Origin: Pirellulales bacterium
GTDB lineage: Bacteria; Planctomycetota; Planctomycetia; Pirellulales; Thermoguttaceae
Assembly (NCBI GenBank): GCA_016931075.1
Contig: JAFGFF010000118.1
Location: 1 to 64,000, forward strand
Reading direction: 5' to 3'
Length of the DNA stretch: 64,000 nt
How positions within the stretch are numbered: the first letter of the stretch is position 1; each line of letters opens with the position of its first letter. A model generated the notes under the pieces. That model saw only the letters and a list, made by a program, of their open reading frames with translations. It did no database searches and had not been told where the DNA came from. The position numbers were made by a program, and so were the translations under genes. This document shows positions 132 through 10,851 of this stretch, one piece after another.

Positions 132-3100
132 TTATTGCCAGTAGCCTTGCAGGGCCAGGTCGACGATCCGGGTGTTGCGGCGAGGCAGGTTCTCGAGTGT
201 CGGTCGGCTCATGCGAAGCTGCTGCATCTCGACAGCCTGAGCCAACGGTCCGTAAAGCCGGGCGGGCTCGGCGACCGACTCGGCCAGCGCCACGTCATGG
301 GCAGCCGCTTGATCGACCGGGTTTTCAGGCGAGATGGTGCAAGCAAGTCCTTCCACGGGCAAGGCCTGTCGGACATAGGCGACTCGTTCCACCGCCCCGG
401 GGTAGACAAGCGTCGATAGCGGTTGGACCAAGGCCGGCGGCGCCAGCAAAGAAGCACCCAGTCGCCGCGGGCCGATTGGCATCGACTGGCGAACGGCCAC
501 TTCCAACGGAACCACTGGGGAAGCGTCCTCGGGCAGGGCCGGAGTATCAACCGGAGTCTGTTCCGGTAGATCGGGTGTCCAGTTGGCCGCCAGGATCGAG
601 GCATCCAGATCGTTAACCTTTCCGTCGTCGTTGAAATCGCCCATCCACCAGGTCGCATCCTCTTGAGTCAGCCAGTATTGGGCCAGAACGCGCACGTCGT
701 CCGCATTGACCAGGCCGTCGCCGGTGGCGTCGCCGGGAGGTGGCTGAGTATCGGCCAGCAGGGTGATGAAATAGTCCTCCACCTCACCGTCGGAGGCGGA
801 ACCGTCGGGGCCAAGGCCTCCCACCGTGCTCAACCGGAATCGGGCATAGGTCTCGTCCGCCTTGACGTTGTTACCGGTGTCCTGCGGGATCGTGAAGGTT
901 AAAACCTGCGTGCCGTCGGCCGTGCCCAGGTTGTAGCTGGTGAAGATCTGCTCGCCCGGATCGTTCCAGTCGCCATCCAAGTTGAAGTCGATCCAGGCGT
1001 CCAGATAGTTTTCATAAGGATCGGCGTTGGTCAGCGTGACTTCGACCTTGGCCGCATGGTTGGCATGGAAAGGCGAGGCGAGCAGTGTGGCCGGGTCGAA
1101 CGCAATCCCGTCTTCGTCACCCCCATCGCCGACGGCCCCAGCACTTGGTTGGCCGTTGGATTCGACGTCGCGGCTGGCGCCCAGCATGGGACCTTCGGCC
1201 ATATGTCGGGCGCCGCCCTCCAAGACCGACGTCGGATAGGTCAGGCCGGCCGTGTAGTGAATCCGACCGTTGAAGATACGGGGCGAATAAACATCGCCGA
1301 AGATTCCCTTGTTGCCGGTTCCTTCCTTGATCTGGAGGTTCTCATCCGAGGCGCAAACTGCGCCGGCTTCCGTCCCGTTGGTGTACCAGATGCCGCCGCT
1401 GGACGCTGCCACGTAGAACGAATACGTCTCGCCGGCGGGGATAGCCACGTCGATTGGCAACGGCAGTGGCACGAGTACTCCCGATCCCCCCGCTTCAACG
1501 CTGGCGACACCGATGAGCGTCCACGCGGCCGGGTCGTGCTCGAACCCGACGTAGGATCCGGCCTTGTAGTAGACCTGGAAGTCGGAGTTCCACCGTGGGT
1601 AGACGTCGATAGTATTAATCACAAGCGTGTTCAGGGCCGTCACGTCGAACATGTTGCCCTCCGCGCTGTTTCCGCCCGTGACCGTCGTCGTCAACGACGA
1701 GCCGACCGTCGAGCTGGGCGCGTCGCCGTAATCGCGGATCGTGCCGGGCACGACGTCGAACACATTGCTCTTGGCGGTGAGCCCCTTGCCGTCATCGGCC
1801 ATGAGGCAAACCCCGTCGGCCGTCTCCATAACGGTGACTTCCTCACTCCAGACGCCGTTGACGAAATGAGCAGCTGTTTCCGGGACGAGAGAGACCTCTA
1901 TTGCCTCAACCCCCTCGATCGTGATGTCGTCAACATACCAGCCGGGATCCTCCATTAACCAGTTGGCATAGAATTCAAACGAGATCTCAACACTGCTCAT
2001 GTTGTCATAGGGAGACAGGTCGACCGTGATCTGTTCATAGGCTGTAGGTGCATCGGCCGTGTCTCGTTCGTAGACAAGATCGCCGTTGACGAACACTTCG
2101 GCAGCGTCCAAGAGACCTCGCAGATCACACCATTGCCACCAAGTCAATTCAAGATCGGTGTAGCCGGTGAAATCGAACGTTTGTGAAAGAAAGCTGGTCC
2201 CGGAGGCGTTGGTGTAATTGCCGTCTAGATTTGTGGCCCAGACCTTTTGACCCGAGTGAGCCGCGCCAGGACCCGAGGTTGGGATACCCCATTCCCAATC
2301 GCCGGGGCTCCACGTCGCCGTGGCGATCCAGCCGCCGTCATCGGTTTCGAAATCGGTGGAATGGAGTGTTCCCACGCCGGTCCAGGCGGAAAGATCAACA
2401 GTGCCTTCGTAGTCGAGGACCGGCACTCCCCCGCGATCCATGGCTGATAGGGTAACCGGGATTGGCTCGCCGAACATCTGGGGCGAGTCGATGGGAGCCC
2501 ACTCGAAGTGGTCCAGGATGCCGGCCACACTGTAGAGACGGATGTTGTCCAGGGCCATGCCGTCGGTGTCGGTCGAGCCGTTGATCGAGCTGTTGTCGTA
2601 TTGCTGGAATCGGATCAAGGTCTCTTCGGAGTAGGTCAGGCCCAGGTCGTCCAGGAAGTAGGAGCGCTCGATGTACTCGGCCGTACTATTGGCGCCGGTT
2701 AGTGCAACAACATCGTGCCAGGACTGTCCACCATCGACACTCACCGAGACGGAATCTTGCGAGTGGTCCTCGTCGCTCCATTCCCGGTTGGCGAAACTCA
2801 AGACGACGGCCCGCTCGTTGGCCAGATTGACGTGCAGGATCAATTGGTTCAACGAATAGGTCGAATCGTCGACGGAGTCGTCCAGCGTCAGATGGCGGCT
2901 GCCTTCAAAAGGTCCATTGCTGGACGTAATCTGAACACGTCCCTGGGTTCCCTCGTGGACCTCCCACCAAGGCCGCGGGGTGGTGCTGTCTTCCCATGTT
3001 TCCGTGAACGGGAGGGTCACGATCGGGTCGGTGTATTCAACCGTGACGCGATCGACTCCGTTTCCGCGATTGGCGTTATTCCCTTCGTCTACTTCCTCGA

Positions 3101-5714
3101 TGGCATCTGCGACGTCAATCACCATACCGATGAAGTAGACGTTGTCCGTGCCGAAGGGATCTTCGGTTGGGACATTCAACGTGACGGAGGCGGTGTGGGT
3201 TGCCTGGGCATCCAGGCTGCCGACATGGTAGCTTTCGCCGGACGAGACCAAGGACAGAGGAGTGTCCGTGGCCGGATTGATAATGGCATCGTCCGAGAGG
3301 AAGAACTGGATGTCAAATCCGCCCGCAGGCGTGTCTCCGGCGTTATAGATCAAGAAATCAACAGCAGCCGTGCCGTCATTGCCGAACAAGTTGTACGGAT
3401 CGATGGCCATGGCCGTACCCAGCAAATCGATGCCGTTGATCCGGGACTCGACAGTCACCTGGAAGGGAATCGAGTTGTGTTCGGTCACGACGAGGTCGTA
3501 AGTGCCGACTTCCGTCGGGGAGAGTCCGGCAAAAGTGACGTTTCCGTTGGCATTGGTCGTGCCGACCCAGTAATCGTCGCCGTTTTCCGTGGAGATGCAG
3601 ACCATTGCGTCCGGCACAGCCACCCCGTCGCGAGTCACTTGGACGACGTAGTCGCTGGCCGTGCCCACGAAGATGTTCGGCACGTAGGCAACATCGAGCG
3701 TTTGCGGCACCGCGGTGCGCATCATCATGGACGGATCGCCGAATCCGTTGAACATCCGGGCGACCAGCAGGGCCGACGAACTCGAATAGCCCAGCCCGGA
3801 GAACGTCCGGTCCTTGGCGTAGTTCAGCACGTCGCCGAACCGCCAGGTGTTCGAGAAGTTCGAGCTGGACCAGCCCGTATCGTAATTGGGCCACATTGCG
3901 TCGAATACGCCGACGTGGAACGTATCGTTCGGGCCGGAATAGCTGACTCGCATCGCACCGGTGAAAGCGACGGCTCCGCCGTTAGCGTTGCGCATCCATG
4001 ACTCACCGAAATAGTCTCCATCATCAAACCACCCGGTGGCGCAGTTGATGCTGAAGACCACCGGCAGCCGATCTCCGTTGTTGAGTGAATTAACGTTGCT
4101 CGTGCGGAACGAGGGCGATCCCCAGCCGCTGGTTGATCCATGGTCTCGGTGCAGCACGAGCGCCACGCCGTTGTTGATGACCGTGGAAATCGATTCGTTT
4201 GCCTTGAACTTCCACGCGTCGGGAACAGGGCTCGGATGGGTGATCCCGCCTGTGTAATTGGAACTCTTATAGTAAAGGGTGTTTTGATTGTAGGTTCCGC
4301 CAGATCCCCAAACCAGATTCGTATGAACCGTGTAGCCCTGGTTATAGGGATCGGTGCTGCTCCAAAAATCGTAGTCGCCACCCAAGAAGTCGGTAACTCG
4401 GTGGATGTCCTCCATGAACCACCGGTCTTCGATGAAGTTCGGATCGTCTTCACCTTCCGAGTCCTGGAACTGGCCGGCGCCGAGGAAGTCGTCGTACCAG
4501 TTGCCCAGATCCGGATTGATCTCGTAGGTCAAGATCTTGTTGACCATCGTAATGATCTGGGCTTCCGTGTCGCCCGGCAAACGACAGAGTGCCACGTCGG
4601 CTACGACATCCGAACCGCCCAGACGCGTGTATTCGTAGTCGGTGTGCCAGACGTGTTCATCGCCGTGGTAGGGATGGCCGACGATCTCGAAAGAGGGTAC
4701 GTTTTCATGGTCACCAACCAGCAGGACGTACTCCGGTCGGTTCGTGTCGGCCAGATAGGCACTGCGCAAGAAGTTATAGATGTCGGTCTGAGTCGTGCCG
4801 ACTTCCGACATCTTGGCCACGTACGTCTTGAAGCCCATCTTGTGCTTCCACTGGGCCAGCGGTAGTACTTCTTCGTAGAACGCGTCGGCCGTAATGATGA
4901 TGTAGTCGGCCGCGCCCGCCGAGGAGACAAACTCCGACGCCCCTTCAGTGAATGCCGCCGCTTCTGTCGGCTCGAACGTCAGGTCGAACGTCACCTCGGT
5001 CACCAGCGCGATTTCGCCCGTGATCGGGTCGTATTGGAACGGGCTGAACTCCAACGCGACGCTGCTGCGCTGGCCTGCCTCCATCGGGTTGCTTACCCAC
5101 AGGATCTCTGCATCGGTTGACGTGCCTTCGGTGTACTGGGTGTAGTAGTCGGTGTCGATGACGAACTCGAACGCCTCGGGCGGCAAATCGATCTCCGGCT
5201 GCTCCGGCTGTTTGGGAAAGACCCATGATTGGGTGCCAAACAGTGACACTTGTCCCAGTTCGAAACTCGTGGACACGTCAACGTTCTGTGGGATCTGGAT
5301 CGACGCCCGATAGATGGGCAGTTCGGGTCGACCCACTTCCTGCGTCAGGCCCCAGCCTGGCACGTCCAACTGGATAAAATCGGCGCCGTCGGCTTGGACG
5401 ACTTCCCAGACAAGGCCGGGCACGGACAGCCGGCCTTGAACCCCATTGTCCGTATAGTCCAACTGCAGTGACAAACTGGCCAGATCGGCCGGGTCGACTG
5501 TTGGTTCCGACTCTTCAAGCCAGAGAGACTGAACGGCCGTGTCGGCGGCAAGCGGAAAGACATCTCCGACCGGATTATTGATGCTCAGCAGGCGTCGATC
5601 TTCCAGCCCCTCGACCCGCAATGATCGTGTCCGAGAATTGGACAAACGCTCCAGTCCACGACGTAGTGTCGAGGCGTGCCGCATGTGGCACAGAGTCTCA
5701 ATGAGTGTGCGCAA
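132..5714 (-). CDS. secreted gingipain-like C25 cysteine peptidase with CARDB, GEVED and dockerin regions
   Basis: The protein has about 1,860 residues and is probably exported and surface-attached. An N-terminal LEDRRLLS motif (about residues 37-44) matches the planctomycete LEPR-XLL export region. Residues about 268-665 resemble peptidase C25 (gingipain): a caspase-like fold with an apparent catalytic His in RDHGS (about 525) and Cys in INCATG (about 556). Then follow a CARDB-like Ig domain (about 765-875), a MAM/jelly-roll-like stretch (about 900-1060), a GEVED domain with DFNLDGDW and DGEVEDYF (about 1490-1655), and a dockerin with two DxNxDG calcium loops (about 1660-1712). A tail of about 148 residues follows the dockerin, which is unusual. 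The start is inferred as TTG at 5714, because AAGGAG lies 6 nt upstream; the ATG at 5684 has no such site. Substrate unknown. Confidence 0.85.
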   Translation of the reverse strand: MRTLIETLCHMRHASTLRRGLERLSNSRTRSLRVEGLEDRRLLSINNPVGDVFPLAADTAVQSLWLEESEPTVDPADLASLSLQLDYTDNGVQGRLSVPGLVWEVVQADGADFIQLDVPGWGLTQEVGRPELPIYRASIQIPQNVDVSTSFELGQVSLFGTQSWVFPKQPEQPEIDLPPEAFEFVIDTDYYTQYTEGTSTDAEILWVSNPMEAGQRSSVALEFSPFQYDPITGEIALVTEVTFDLTFEPTEAAAFTEGASEFVSSAGAADYIIITADAFYEEVLPLAQWKHKMGFKTYVAKMSEVGTTQTDIYNFLRSAYLADTNRPEYVLLVGDHENVPSFEIVGHPYHGDEHVWHTDYEYTRLGGSDVVADVALCRLPGDTEAQIITMVNKILTYEINPDLGNWYDDFLGAGQFQDSEGEDDPNFIEDRWFMEDIHRVTDFLGGDYDFWSSTDPYNQGYTVHTNLVWGSGGTYNQNTLYYKSSNYTGGITHPSPVPDAWKFKANESISTVINNGVALVLHRDHGSTSGWGSPSFRTSNVNSLNNGDRLPVVFSINCATGWFDDGDYFGESWMRNANGGAVAFTGAMRVSYSGPNDTFHVGVFDAMWPNYDTGWSSSNFSNTWRFGDVLNYAKDRTFSGLGYSSSSALLVARMFNGFGDPSMMMRTAVPQTLDVAYVPNIFVGTASDYVVQVTRDGVAVPDAMVCISTENGDDYWVGTTNANGNVTFAGLSPTEVGTYDLVVTEHNSIPFQVTVESRINGIDLLGTAMAIDPYNLFGNDGTAAVDFLIYNAGDTPAGGFDIQFFLSDDAIINPATDTPLSLVSSGESYHVGSLDAQATHTASVTLNVPTEDPFGTDNVYFIGMVIDVADAIEEVDEGNNANRGNGVDRVTVEYTDPIVTLPFTETWEDSTTPRPWWEVHEGTQGRVQITSSNGPFEGSRHLTLDDSVDDSTYSLNQLILHVNLANERAVVLSFANREWSDEDHSQDSVSVSVDGGQSWHDVVALTGANSTAEYIERSYFLDDLGLTYSEETLIRFQQYDNSSINGSTDTDGMALDNIRLYSVAGILDHFEWAPIDSPQMFGEPIPVTLSAMDRGGVPVLDYEGTVDLSAWTGVGTLHSTDFETDDGGWIATATWSPGDWEWGIPTSGPGAAHSGQKVWATNLDGNYTNASGTSFLSQTFDFTGYTDLELTWWQWCDLRGLLDAAEVFVNGDLVYERDTADAPTAYEQITVDLSPYDNMSSVEISFEFYANWLMEDPGWYVDDITIEGVEAIEVSLVPETAAHFVNGVWSEEVTVMETADGVCLMADDGKGLTAKSNVFDVVPGTIRDYGDAPSSTVGSSLTTTVTGGNSAEGNMFDVTALNTLVINTIDVYPRWNSDFQVYYKAGSYVGFEHDPAAWTLIGVASVEAGGSGVLVPLPLPIDVAIPAGETYSFYVAASSGGIWYTNGTEAGAVCASDENLQIKEGTGNKGIFGDVYSPRIFNGRIHYTAGLTYPTSVLEGGARHMAEGPMLGASRDVESNGQPSAGAVGDGGDEDGIAFDPATLLASPFHANHAAKVEVTLTNADPYENYLDAWIDFNLDGDWNDPGEQIFTSYNLGTADGTQVLTFTIPQDTGNNVKADETYARFRLSTVGGLGPDGSASDGEVEDYFITLLADTQPPPGDATGDGLVNADDVRVLAQYWLTQEDATWWMGDFNDDGKVNDLDASILAANWTPDLPEQTPVDTPALPEDASPVVPLEVAVRQSMPIGPRRLGASLLAPPALVQPLSTLVYPGAVERVAYVRQALPVEGLACTISPENPVDQAAAHDVALAESVAEPARLYGPLAQAVEMQQLRMSRPTLENLPRRNTRIVDLALQGYWQ

Positions 5715-6281
5715 GGCTCTCTCCTTCCCTGTATGGCTATACCACCGTTCCGAACATTGGCTGCAATGGGAATCCAGCGCGCAAAAACCCCTCGGAATTT
5801 CTCCGGACTGAGCGCGCAGCAACCAATCACTCGGCCGTCCAATCAAGAATGGCCCGACTCCACCTACGCCGGGAAAACGTCCACCCTCGGATTAATCAGG
5901 CGTCACGGTTGCCTTGCCCAACCGTGCCCTTCGCCACTGCTGGCCTGAACAGTGGCGACACCCCACTTGCCATTCTAATCGGGATGGACCGCGCGCGATA
6001 CGAAATCACCTCATTCTCGTCGAAACACGCGCGTCCGGCGGCCTTGCGGAAAACGGCCGTACCCTATTTGATAACGATTCTTGACGTGCATTTCAACAGA
6101 AGAGTTCGACATTTTCGTCCTTCTTGGCCAGCCTTCCCCTCGGAGACATCACCCCCCTGGGGACTAGTCGCTATGCTTAACCGGGAGATGGACACATAAT
6201 TGGTCGGATGCACCCCCATGCGAGAGGGGTTTTTAAGCAGGTTCGCCTGTACTGGGGCTCAAGTTGCGTGCCGTCGCAGGC
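5715..6281. other. intergenic region without a recognisable gene
   Basis: About 570 bp separate the C25 peptidase start from the stop of the next minus-strand gene, so the peptidase promoter should lie here. Open frames on both strands show no family resemblance and no good ribosome binding site. A GC hairpin followed by TTTTT on the plus strand (about 6208-6233) looks like a terminator, but no plus-strand gene precedes it. Confidence 0.5.
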
Positions 6282-7448
6282 TTAGCCCAAGATCCGCTTC
6301 CAACGCTGCAGGTTCCACTGCGCCTTTTCGGCGGGCGACATCTTCGAGAAATCGGGGTCAGCCGCTTCAGCCGGCAGGGAGACCGTTTGATAGGGGCGTC
6401 GGCCGACGGGCGTGGAAGTGCCCGTGTAGCTGCTGGCCGTGCTGGTCTGCTGCAGATCGTCTTGCAGCGTGCGGTAGGGTTGGATGCCCAGCTTGCCCAG
6501 ATCGGCGTGGTAGGCCCGAACTGCTTCGGCTGGCTCGATCTGGCCGTCGGCCAACGTGCGGAGGTACTTGACGAACGTGAGCTGGTGCTCGGCGTGATTG
6601 ATCTTCCGACCGTAAAGCGCCACGCGGGCACCGTGCTTCTTCGCTTCCCAGAGCATCTGGAAGGCGTCGAACGTCGTGCCCGACGAACCGCCCAGAATGC
6701 CCACGACCAGCGACCGGTCGTAGCCGGCCAGGGCCTCCATTGCTGCCGGTCCGTGATAGGGGATTTTCAAGAACAAGGGCCGGCCCCGCTTGGTCACGCC
6801 GGCCAGCGTGCGGACGATGTTGTCGGCGACGAATCGGCCCAAATCGGCCGGCGGATGGTCGCCTGGGCAGTTGGGGTCGAAAACCTCGAGAAAGTGTCGA
6901 AAACCCTTCGTCTCGGCCTCGACGCGGAACTGCTTGTACTGCTCCAGGGCGTGTCGGTCGGCCGGGGCGTCGTTGTTGAAGGTGACCGAGTAGAGCCCCA
7001 GGTCGGCCCCGCGGGACCGTTCGGCCGGCTCGCACTCGGCCTTGCCGCACATGATGTGGTCGATCGTGGCCGTGCGGAAAGGCAGCGACGGCTGGGCGCC
7101 GTAGCGGCCCGTGCCGGCGGCCAGCCAGATGTCCGTCGTGTCGTTCGCCCGAACGGCCGGCGTGACGTGGCTGGCGTCGAAGATCCGCTCCTCGATCGTG
7201 AGAACCTCGTTGGTGCTGGCCGACATGAGCATGATGTCGACCATCCCCTGGGCGACGATCTCGCGCATCAGTTGGCGGTATTCTTCGAGCGTGCGGAATC
7301 GGGCCTCGTGGGCATGGTGCTCGGGGCTCTTGCCCGGCGCGGACAAGCCGAACGCCATGTCGGCGTCCTTGGCGTCGGCGATAATGAAGTCGCCGCAATT
7401 CGGATCGTCGAGAATTCGGGTGAGCTTGGCGTCTAGCGATTTTTGCAT
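6282..7448 (-). CDS. class I aldolase-like TIM-barrel protein (DhnA/LacD-like)
   Basis: The protein has 388 residues when started at ATG 7448; the longer open frame upstream looks non-coding. The C-terminal half carries aldolase-barrel signatures: LFLKIPYHGP, with a lysine placed like the Schiff-base lysine of DhnA/LacD aldolases, then GILGGSSGTTFDAF and an alanine-rich helix ending in ALYGRKIN, which resembles the phosphate-binding end of those barrels. The N-terminal part contains DFIIADAKDADMAFG. The final 40 residues after TLQDDLQQ are low-complexity and may be a flexible tail. The closest assignment is to the tagatose-bisphosphate/fructose-bisphosphate class I aldolases. Substrate unknown. 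A sulfatase gene follows upstream on the same strand after 219 bp, so sugar catabolism is a reasonable context. Confidence 0.6.
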   Translation of the reverse strand: MQKSLDAKLTRILDDPNCGDFIIADAKDADMAFGLSAPGKSPEHHAHEARFRTLEEYRQLMREIVAQGMVDIMLMSASTNEVLTIEERIFDASHVTPAVRANDTTDIWLAAGTGRYGAQPSLPFRTATIDHIMCGKAECEPAERSRGADLGLYSVTFNNDAPADRHALEQYKQFRVEAETKGFRHFLEVFDPNCPGDHPPADLGRFVADNIVRTLAGVTKRGRPLFLKIPYHGPAAMEALAGYDRSLVVGILGGSSGTTFDAFQMLWEAKKHGARVALYGRKINHAEHQLTFVKYLRTLADGQIEPAEAVRAYHADLGKLGIQPYRTLQDDLQQTSTASSYTGTSTPVGRRPYQTVSLPAEAADPDFSKMSPAEKAQWNLQRWKRILG

Positions 7449-7667
7449 GGGGAGGGCTCTCGGGGCAAATCGGTGGCAGCAATCTCCCAAGTATACCCCA
7501 TCCGACGCCCACGGGGGAGTCAGGACAACAGGGATCCCTGATCGCAACTCGCTCTGGAGGGCCACGCTCTGAGCGTTGCCGAGGATGCTACTTGAAGGAC
7601 GCAATTCCGTTCAATCGTCCTTTTCACGTGTGAGATTGCCCGCGAGGACGTTCTTTGATCGTCCGGA

Positions 7668-9182
7668 TCAATTCTCGCCGCTGTCCCCAGACCTTTTCTC
7701 GAAGAAATAGTCGGGATAGGTCAGCTTCAGCCGGCGTCGGTCGGGCTTTCCGTCCTTGAACGACGCGTCGATCTCCGCCTTCAGTCGGGCAACGTTCTCC
7801 GGGACCAACAGCGGATCGCCCGTCTGGCGACGCCAATCGGCCAAGGCCTGCTTCAGTTCGCCCAACACGGTGGCGCGCTCGGGATCCGCGCTCAGATCGC
7901 GGAACTCGTAAGGGTCGTTGGCCAGATCATAAAGTTGATACTCCGGCGGACGCTGCATTAGAGCGTAGGCGTTTCGAATCCGCTCAGGAGCGTTGGCAAT
8001 CACTTTGTCATCCCCCGGGTAGCGGCTGTCGAGTGTGAAGCGGTAGTCGGGGTTTTCCTGGCCCGGCAGGAGGCTGTGAATCAGCTTAAACCGGTCGGTT
8101 CGGACCGCGCGTTGCGGATAGAAATCGTGAGCCGAGTGGAAGTGGTACTCGGTGAAGAGATGCTCTCGCCACGGTGCGTCACCGGCGCCAAACAGTGGTT
8201 CGAGCGAACGGCCCGGCAGACCGGGGATCGGCTTGGCCCCAGCCACGCTTAAGAACGTGGGCGCGAGGTCGACCGTCGACACCAACTCACTCCGAACCTG
8301 GCCGGGCGCGACGTGACCGGTCCAGTGGACGATCAGCGGGACGCGGACGCCGCCTTCGTAGCACGTCCGTTTGCCTCGCAGAAGGTCGGCGCCGTGGTCG
8401 CCCAGATAGACAATCAGGGTATCGTCAAACTTGCCGGACCGGCGGAGCACTGTCAAGAGCCGCCCGACGAGCGTGTCGAGCCGGTTCATGCTGTTGTAGT
8501 AATTGGCCGTGTCTTTTCGCAGAGCAGGGCTGTCGAGCCCGATGTAGGCCAGTGGCTTGACATCGGCGGTCGAAAGGGGCTTTTGGGGCATCCCGGCCAC
8601 TTGTCGCAGAAACGGCCGGTGGGCGTCGGGGTAGTTCACATACAGGAAGAACGGTTTTTCGGAGGCGTTGATGAACTTCTCGGCCTCGGCGGCGTAACGC
8701 TTGAGGCCCTTGCGTCGGAAATTCGAGTCGGGGATCTTGGCGAAATCGAACGGGAAGTTCGACTCCGGGTTGACGTGCAGCTTTCCAATGATGCCCGTGC
8801 GATAGCCGGCCGCCTTCAGGCTCCGGACGATGTTGGGCGTCCGGTCGCGATAGAGCCGGCTGTTCCAAGTGGCCAGTCCGATCTGGCCGTGTTGGTGCGG
8901 ATACAAACCGGTCAGGATCGACGCCCGCGACTGGCTGCATCCGGCCTGGGTGACATAAGCCCGGTTGAACCGGATTCCTCCTTCCGCCAAACGGTCCAGC
9001 ACAGGGGTTTTCACGTAAGGTTCGCCGTAACAACTCAACTCCGGGCCGTTGTCTTCGGAAACGATCAGCAAGATGTTGGGCCGCGCCGTCGACTCGGCTT
9101 CCACGTCGCCGACCGCAACGACCAGGAAAAAGCCCGCCAACAACGCGGTTGCAGACAACAAGAGGCCTCGCATCGGGAACAT
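7668..9182 (-). CDS. sulfatase, N-sulfoglucosamine sulfohydrolase (sulfamidase)-like
   Basis: The protein has 504 residues with an N-terminal signal segment (about 5-29), so it is exported. The alkaline-phosphatase-like sulfatase core starts at RPNILLIVSEDNG, where the acidic residues bind Ca2+. The formylglycine motif is C82-S-Q-S-R86, so the usual proline of CxPSR is glutamine here. Other family features are IGKLHVNPES and FFLYVNYPDAHRPF, which resemble heparan N-sulfatases, and LGDHGAD for the second metal-binding aspartate. Such enzymes hydrolyse sulfate or sulfamate from polysaccharides. An anaerobic sulfatase-maturating enzyme or FGE would be needed and is not in this window. GAGGAATACTCCCC precedes the ATG; a second ATG three codons in is possible. 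Confidence 0.85.
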   Translation of the reverse strand: MFPMRGLLLSATALLAGFFLVVAVGDVEAESTARPNILLIVSEDNGPELSCYGEPYVKTPVLDRLAEGGIRFNRAYVTQAGCSQSRASILTGLYPHQHGQIGLATWNSRLYRDRTPNIVRSLKAAGYRTGIIGKLHVNPESNFPFDFAKIPDSNFRRKGLKRYAAEAEKFINASEKPFFLYVNYPDAHRPFLRQVAGMPQKPLSTADVKPLAYIGLDSPALRKDTANYYNSMNRLDTLVGRLLTVLRRSGKFDDTLIVYLGDHGADLLRGKRTCYEGGVRVPLIVHWTGHVAPGQVRSELVSTVDLAPTFLSVAGAKPIPGLPGRSLEPLFGAGDAPWREHLFTEYHFHSAHDFYPQRAVRTDRFKLIHSLLPGQENPDYRFTLDSRYPGDDKVIANAPERIRNAYALMQRPPEYQLYDLANDPYEFRDLSADPERATVLGELKQALADWRRQTGDPLLVPENVARLKAEIDASFKDGKPDRRRLKLTYPDYFFEKRSGDSGEN

Positions 9183-9262: not shown

Positions 9263-9685
9263 CTAGGCCTCCTCTTCCCGCGTAAAATTGCTCACCAGCA
9301 CGTCCTTGAGCAGTGCCAGCGTCTCGGCGGTCCGCTCGGTGCCGACGGCGACGATGCTCTTGCCCGTCTCCGGATCGCGGCGGATTATCCGGACGCTGTG
9401 GAGGTTGATGTTCGCCTCCTTGAAGCGGCGCATGATCCGGGCCAGTTCGCCTGGCCGGTCGTCGAGTTGCACGACGATGGCTTCCTCGCTGATCGCGTGA
9501 AAGGGCGTCTGGGCCAGGGCGCGAAGGCCCTCGTCGTACTTGTCGACCGTCATGATCGCGATGGCTGAGCCGGCCACCGTCTCGGCGGCCAGCGTTTCGA
9601 TGTTCACACCCGCCGCGGCCATGGCCTCGGCAATTTCGGCCCCCACGCCGGGCCGGTCCTCGCTGACAATGATGATCTGTTTCAT
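9263..9685 (-). CDS. tandem ACT-domain protein coupled to the decarboxylase gene
   Basis: The protein has 140 residues made of two ACT domains. The first begins MKQIIIVSEDRPGVGAEIAEAM (about 1-65) and the second VVQLDDRPGELARIMRRFKE (about 70-135). ACT domains usually bind small molecules such as amino acids and regulate enzymes. The start ATG overlaps the stop of the upstream decarboxylase gene as ATGA, so the two are translationally coupled, with AGGAG inside the end of the upstream gene. This suggests that the ACT protein senses the substrate or product of the decarboxylase, which is inference. It has no catalytic domain, unlike GlnD or aspartokinase. Confidence 0.85.
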   Translation of the reverse strand: MKQIIIVSEDRPGVGAEIAEAMAAAGVNIETLAAETVAGSAIAIMTVDKYDEGLRALAQTPFHAISEEAIVVQLDDRPGELARIMRRFKEANINLHSVRIIRRDPETGKSIVAVGTERTAETLALLKDVLVSNFTREEEA

Positions 9686-10851
9686 GACGGGAGCACTCCT
9701 GAGGAAGCAGGGGTCGTTTGGGCAACGTCCTCGATGAACCGGTCGATCCGCTCGCGTGTGACGTGGGGCATGACCATGACGTGCGCGAGCTTGTGCTGGA
9801 CGGCCAGTTGCCACTTGCTGACTGTCTCGGGCGTCGGCCGGTCGAAGACGACGGTGACCGAATTGCGGTGTCGCCAGGCATGGCAGCCGATCTTGTTGAG
9901 CTGTTCGACCGCGTAGTCGGCCGTGTCGAAACAGTGCTCGATCCGCCGCTTGAAACCGTCCAGCCCGACCGTGCGGAAGGCGTACCACAGGAACAACGGC
10001 GTGATCGCGTTACGCGAGCCGAGAATCGTCGTGTCGAGCGTGACAATGTATTCGATGTTTCGGGCGATCCGGTCGACGTGCTCTTTCTTGGCCAGGCAGA
10101 CGCCGCAGGGGATCGGCGAGCCGATCATCTTGTGGCCGCTGATCGAGATGCTGTCGATGCCCGAGGCGAAGTTCCACGGCGGCGGATCGTCGACGAACGG
10201 CAGGATCATGCCGCTCAGGGCCGCGTCGGCGTGAATATAGTGCCGGGGGATGGCCAGATCGTCGAGAATCTGGCGGATGCCGTCCAGGTCGTCGACGGCT
10301 CCTTTCATCGTGGTGCCGATGTTGGCGAAAATGATCGGAGGCACGTCGCGGTGGATCCGGATCGTCTCGCGCAGGTCCTCCAGGTCGATCCGCCCGTCCG
10401 AATCACTTTTGATCATGACGTTGCGGACTCGCAGGCAGCGGAGGATTTTGCTGACCGAGTAGTGGGTGTCCTCGCTGTAGTAAACCAACCCGTCGGGCAA
10501 CAGCTCGCGGCCCAGGAAGATGCCGTACAAGTTCCCTTCGGTCCCGCCGCTGGTGATGTATCCCCAGATCGAATCCTCCGGCGCGGCGGTCAGCTTCTGG
10601 AAGATGCCCAGAACCTCCAATTCGAACTTGTGGGTGTTCAGATGGAAGTTGCCAGGCACGAACGGATCGCCCACGTTGTTCAGCGGGTAGCCTAAAAACG
10701 GATAGAGAGGGCTGTAGTCGAAAACGGTCGAACAGGGATAGCCAATAAACACCTTGGCTTCCCGCTCGATCACCGCGTACAGGTCGTCCAGCCGCTTCTG
10801 GTCCTCCGCCGAAAGCGGAGACGCTTTTAATATCTTGTGCATCATGCTCAT
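9682..10851 (-). CDS. PLP-dependent group II decarboxylase, histidine-decarboxylase-like
   Basis: The protein has about 389 residues. It matches the bacterial histidine decarboxylase / plant serine decarboxylase branch almost throughout: IGYP, FDYSPLYPFLGYPLNNVGDP, WGYITSGGTEGN, YYSEDTHYSVSKI, and the PLP lysine in SGHKMIG. It should decarboxylate an amino acid to its amine; histidine to histamine is the first guess, serine to ethanolamine an alternative. The start is uncertain. Family resemblance begins at LSAEDQKRLDDL, so ATG 10851 is used; ATGs at 10917 and 11046 would add a segment without family resemblance. The 4-nt overlap with the downstream ACT gene points to a two-gene operon. Confidence 0.85.
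   Translation of the reverse strand: MSMMHKILKASPLSAEDQKRLDDLYAVIEREAKVFIGYPCSTVFDYSPLYPFLGYPLNNVGDPFVPGNFHLNTHKFELEVLGIFQKLTAAPEDSIWGYITSGGTEGNLYGIFLGRELLPDGLVYYSEDTHYSVSKILRCLRVRNVMIKSDSDGRIDLEDLRETIRIHRDVPPIIFANIGTTMKGAVDDLDGIRQILDDLAIPRHYIHADAALSGMILPFVDDPPPWNFASGIDSISISGHKMIGSPIPCGVCLAKKEHVDRIARNIEYIVTLDTTILGSRNAITPLFLWYAFRTVGLDGFKRRIEHCFDTADYAVEQLNKIGCHAWRHRNSVTVVFDRPTPETVSKWQLAVQHKLAHVMVMPHVTRERIDRFIEDVAQTTPASSGVLPS

Follow-up and report, generated by a model that had tools for sequence, protein, structure and literature searches.

A putative amino-acid-responsive PLP decarboxylase formed with a separate tandem ACT-domain protein in Pirellulales-type planctomycetes

The window, by which we mean the whole 64,000-nucleotide stretch of DNA analysed, carries on its minus strand two overlapping genes. 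The upstream one (9682..10851) encodes a group II PLP decarboxylase of 389 amino acids, the proposed catalytic subunit, and runs from an ATG at 10851 to a TGA at 9684-9682, the ATGs at 10845 and 10842 being possible alternative starts. The downstream one (9263..9685) extends from an ATG at 9685-9683 to a TAG at 9265-9263 and encodes a tandem (double) ACT-domain protein of 140 amino acids, the proposed regulatory subunit. The stop TGA of the decarboxylase gene and the start ATG of the ACT gene share the tetranucleotide ATGA (9682..9685), and an AGGAG at 9696..9700, within the end of the decarboxylase gene and 10 nt 5' of the ACT ATG, may function as a Shine-Dalgarno-like element. Both reading frames and the shared ATGA lie where the first-pass annotation had placed them, and no second copy of either gene was found at a comparable score in the genome from which the window comes.

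The assignment of the enzyme to the group II PLP decarboxylases is based on its match to the Pfam Pyridoxal_deC profile (PF00282, 2.9e-22), on the PLP lysine and on the catalytic residues. K241, which is the PLP lysine and lies in SGHKM, is invariant in 13 aligned members, as are D209, H130 and Y268, and the SGHK lysine, the HADAA aspartate and the catalytic-loop tyrosine align with those of the solved enzymes. The Gram-negative PLP histidine decarboxylase (HDC; PDB 7eru/7erv) belongs to the same family and has these PLP and catalytic residues in common with the window enzyme. The latter reaches 480 bits with the NCBIfam model NF002748 (histidine decarboxylase), above the curated cut-off of 305; the same model gives 597 bits to the Photobacterium-type HDC (7erv), 460 to the aligned part of a plant serine decarboxylase (SerDC) and 455 to the tea alanine decarboxylase. 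Since the plant serine decarboxylase passes too, NF002748 does not identify the substrate, and reading a substrate from the family score was rejected as non-discriminating (480 versus 460 bits). The window enzyme is 48% identical to HDC over 366 aligned residues, 43% to AtSerDC and 42% to the tea enzyme.

Mutation has placed the control of substrate choice at Tyr111 of AtSerDC and Phe106 of CsAlaDC, as described in the study of these enzymes (PDB 8jg7, 8jik; PMC11407765). This specificity position is occupied by Glu in the Photobacterium HDC and by Cys in every ACT-linked member (C40 in the window, within the codons for Y38-P39-C40 at 10732..10740 on the minus strand, counted from the frame start at 10851). 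The window and its ACT-linked relatives display YPC together with GDPF (as in the window) or GDPY, whereas the HDC pocket combines YPE with a GDW loop. The window enzyme shares with the plant serine and tea alanine decarboxylases a GDP loop and a WQLA...MP..V segment, both of which follow SerDC and not HDC; where AtSerDC has Tyr111, it has Cys40. The designation as a histidine decarboxylase in the first-pass annotation is not supported, in that the family model fails to separate HDC from SerDC and the pocket residue is unlike that of both. Among the alignment columns in which HDC and SerDC differ, the window enzyme agrees with HDC in 65, with SerDC in 46 and with neither in 97, so that overall sequence likeness does not discriminate between the two. 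The decarboxylase tree has weak support and long branches, so that no substrate claim was drawn from it.

Many enzymes in amino acid metabolism are controlled by ACT domains, which in some cases form a subunit of their own. The second protein of the window matches the Pfam ACT family over two stretches (1e-13, 51 bits), as well as ACT_4 and ACT_AHAS_ss, and its AlphaFold model (pLDDT 82) consists of two successive beta-alpha-beta-beta-alpha-beta units. It is an ACT-domain protein by virtue of these two units with their DxPG ligand loops, both of which are canonical (DRPG). Its top matches among solved structures are BT0572 (PDB 2f06; best by Foldseek) and YdjB, and its other fold matches include the regulatory ACT domains of the acetolactate synthase small subunit, of the aspartate kinase regulatory subunit and of phosphoglycerate dehydrogenase (PGDH). 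In G064, the nearest relative, the pair is followed by serC, encoding a phosphoserine transaminase (479 bits to serC_1; L041 6977-8074, minus strand). This gene, seen beside the pair only there, and the PGDH-like match of the ACT protein are faint hints towards serine. As judged from sequence, the substrate may be serine, histidine or another amino acid.

The association of the two genes was surveyed across planctomycetes. A contig scan with the ACT protein returned five loci, three from Pirellulales and the others from Planctomycetaceae and Planctomycetia, with the decarboxylase directly upstream in all five. Across the order, the ACT protein was detected in 6 of 296 genomes, and the decarboxylase was again directly upstream in 6/6. 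In the family of the window (119 genomes), the decarboxylase occurs in 12 genomes and the ACT protein in 11, every one of which also has the decarboxylase; Fisher's test for this co-occurrence, which ignores shared descent, gives 1.1e-14 by genome and 1.2e-7 by genus. The family and order searches combined yield 12 genomes with a split pair, one of them from another family. The genes are directly adjacent in 11 of these 12, and in the twelfth (G677) they are divided by a contig break: the stop codon of the decarboxylase is 14 bp away from the end of its contig, while a different contig carries the ACT gene from base 80 onwards, which is consistent with an assembly break between the two genes. 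The 4-nt overlap is found in 8 of the 11 contiguous pairs (G000, G064, G072 as GTGA, G162, G221, G685, G687 and G708); it is not universal, the other junctions measuring -23 nt in G173, +15 in G709 and +133 in G676. The 133-nt spacer of G676 (L084) contains short TTCAATGTTCAAGG-like repeats, and the assembly of its sister genome G677 is broken at the same place.

The ACT gene is, in genetic terms, dedicated to one catalytic gene, and the opposite arrangement, an ACT gene beside unrelated genes in most relatives, was looked for and not found. In an all-against-all comparison of the neighbourhoods, only the decarboxylase and the ACT protein recur widely. The pairing is beyond chance, because the two proteins, and the 4-nt overlap as well, are found again at loci where the ACT proteins are as little as 38% and up to 88% identical. 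Chance adjacency and general synteny were rejected by this survey, the two genes alone being widely recurrent. An ordinary histidine decarboxylase lying by accident beside an unrelated ACT gene, for which the annotation label alone would speak, is scarcely credible in view of the strict co-occurrence, the conserved overlap and the fusions described below. The distance matrices of both proteins correlate (r = 0.90), as is expected for any two co-inherited genes, and this was not counted as evidence.

The decarboxylase of G213 (56% identity) has no visible ACT gene on a contig that ends 30 bp past the decarboxylase frame. Nor was an ACT match found near the more distant relatives examined, whether at 42% identity or in a second decarboxylase group of about 30-35% identity, which exists in other genera of the window's family (L030-L040). 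No ACT partner was present near the sampled HDC-like relatives. In a phylum-wide search, the genome of the window alone passed E 1e-60. Phyla other than Planctomycetota were sampled via plasmid records only, of which 59 contain a decarboxylase relative and none of these a match to the ACT protein, in agreement with the earlier suggestion that the pairing is unusual for such decarboxylases.

Natural fusions of the two proteins exist as well. In G087, G040 and G136, which belong to a different family of the order, a single frame of 583-645 amino acids encodes the decarboxylase followed by two C-terminal ACT domains; these fusions are the only decarboxylase members found among the 72 genomes of that family. 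Their decarboxylase part is 61-62% identical to the window enzyme. Their ACT part aligns with the split ACT proteins over both domains (hhalign E 3.6e-16), with Pfam ACT scores below the cut-off. In the structure model of the fusion, strands and helices follow one another as in the split form, at moderate confidence. Since the two products are fused in some genomes and separate in relatives, they can be expected to act together, the evidence being strong though indirect. Co-occurrence, adjacency, conserved overlap and fusions together bear out the dedicated decarboxylase and double ACT unit that had been suspected from the window.

It could also be considered that the ACT protein has a structural or stabilising role as a decarboxylase subunit and does not sense amino acids. 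The first ACT loop is indeed degenerate in the fusions, which have no DRPG there, and in G162, and Pfam scores the fused ACT domains weakly. This explanation is nonetheless unlikely, given that D76 and G79 of the DxPG loop in the second ACT domain are invariant in all aligned members, fusions included, and that both loops of the window protein are canonical. R99 and R103 are likewise invariant in split and fused forms and represent candidate contacts. Ligand binding in the fusions may differ, owing to the loss of the first-loop DRPG and to the sub-threshold Pfam scores. Alternatively, the two proteins could belong to a common pathway or operon without binding each other, the ACT protein regulating another target such as transcription or a transporter. 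In favour of such an arrangement, free-standing double ACT proteins are found beside other genes elsewhere in the phylum. We regard it as quite improbable: natural fusions exist, no further gene recurs with the pair, and no DNA-binding domain was detected in the ACT protein. Several of these free proteins, from distant phylum members (L053, L055 and L058), lie beside putative phenylacetate-CoA ligases, as read from their sequences.

We propose, with considerable confidence, that the pair encodes one amino-acid-responsive decarboxylase, in which a catalytic PLP subunit is joined by a distinct, translationally coupled regulatory subunit with two ACT domains. The ACT protein is best read as a dedicated regulatory subunit, which would bind the enzyme and exert feedback on it. 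The conserved 4-nt overlap suggests that translation of the second gene would be coupled to that of the first through the stop/start junction; near-equal synthesis of the two proteins, as put forward in the first-pass annotation, may be supposed as well. Binding of the ACT protein to the decarboxylase is suggested by the natural fusions, the co-occurrence and the adjacency. By analogy with the ACT family, the activity of the decarboxylase would change when an amino acid, which is probably either the substrate or one related to it, binds at the DxPG loop of the two ACT domains. It can be hypothesised further, and more tentatively, that these proteins constitute a new class of two-subunit, amino-acid-regulated PLP decarboxylases of Pirellulales-type planctomycetes, existing in split and fused forms and acting on a substrate that is neither histidine nor serine; this broader proposition may well prove wrong.

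A close precedent is acetolactate synthase, whose catalytic subunit is regulated by a separate ACT protein (IlvN/IlvH) from an adjacent gene. The likeness extends to the ACT_AHAS_ss profile (1.1e-7) and the fold match of the window ACT protein, whereas the catalytic subunit is an unrelated ThDP enzyme and the ACT sequence identity is low. BT0572, at about 19-20% identity, has the size and two-ACT layout of the window protein, but the stand-alone double ACT proteins have a partner enzyme other than a decarboxylase. The accessible part of the study of the plant serine and tea alanine decarboxylases mentions no ACT partner (PMC11407765). Our literature search, from which subscription journals were mostly absent, returned no ACT-regulated PLP decarboxylase and no pairing of a histidine decarboxylase with an ACT domain. 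To our knowledge, control of group II PLP decarboxylases by amino acids through a separate ACT subunit is not generally recognised. If the proposal is correct, a new class of enzymes has recruited the ACT module, and comparing its split with its fused forms would readily show how such regulation arises. Histamine production should then not be deduced from the name 'histidine decarboxylase' that this protein family bears.

The surrounding genes were rejected as a clue to the pathway, given that G687 alone has a 440-aa protein in common with the window and serC was seen only at G064, the rest being variable. The 440-aa protein (6282-7604, minus strand), which has no Pfam family, is separated from the ACT gene in the window by a sulfatase gene (7668-9182), and its relative in G687 lies directly 3' of the ACT gene (L013 2743-3915). 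Further along, the minus strand encodes at 132-5846 a 1904-aa protein with Peptidase C25, CARDB, GEVED and dockerin domains.
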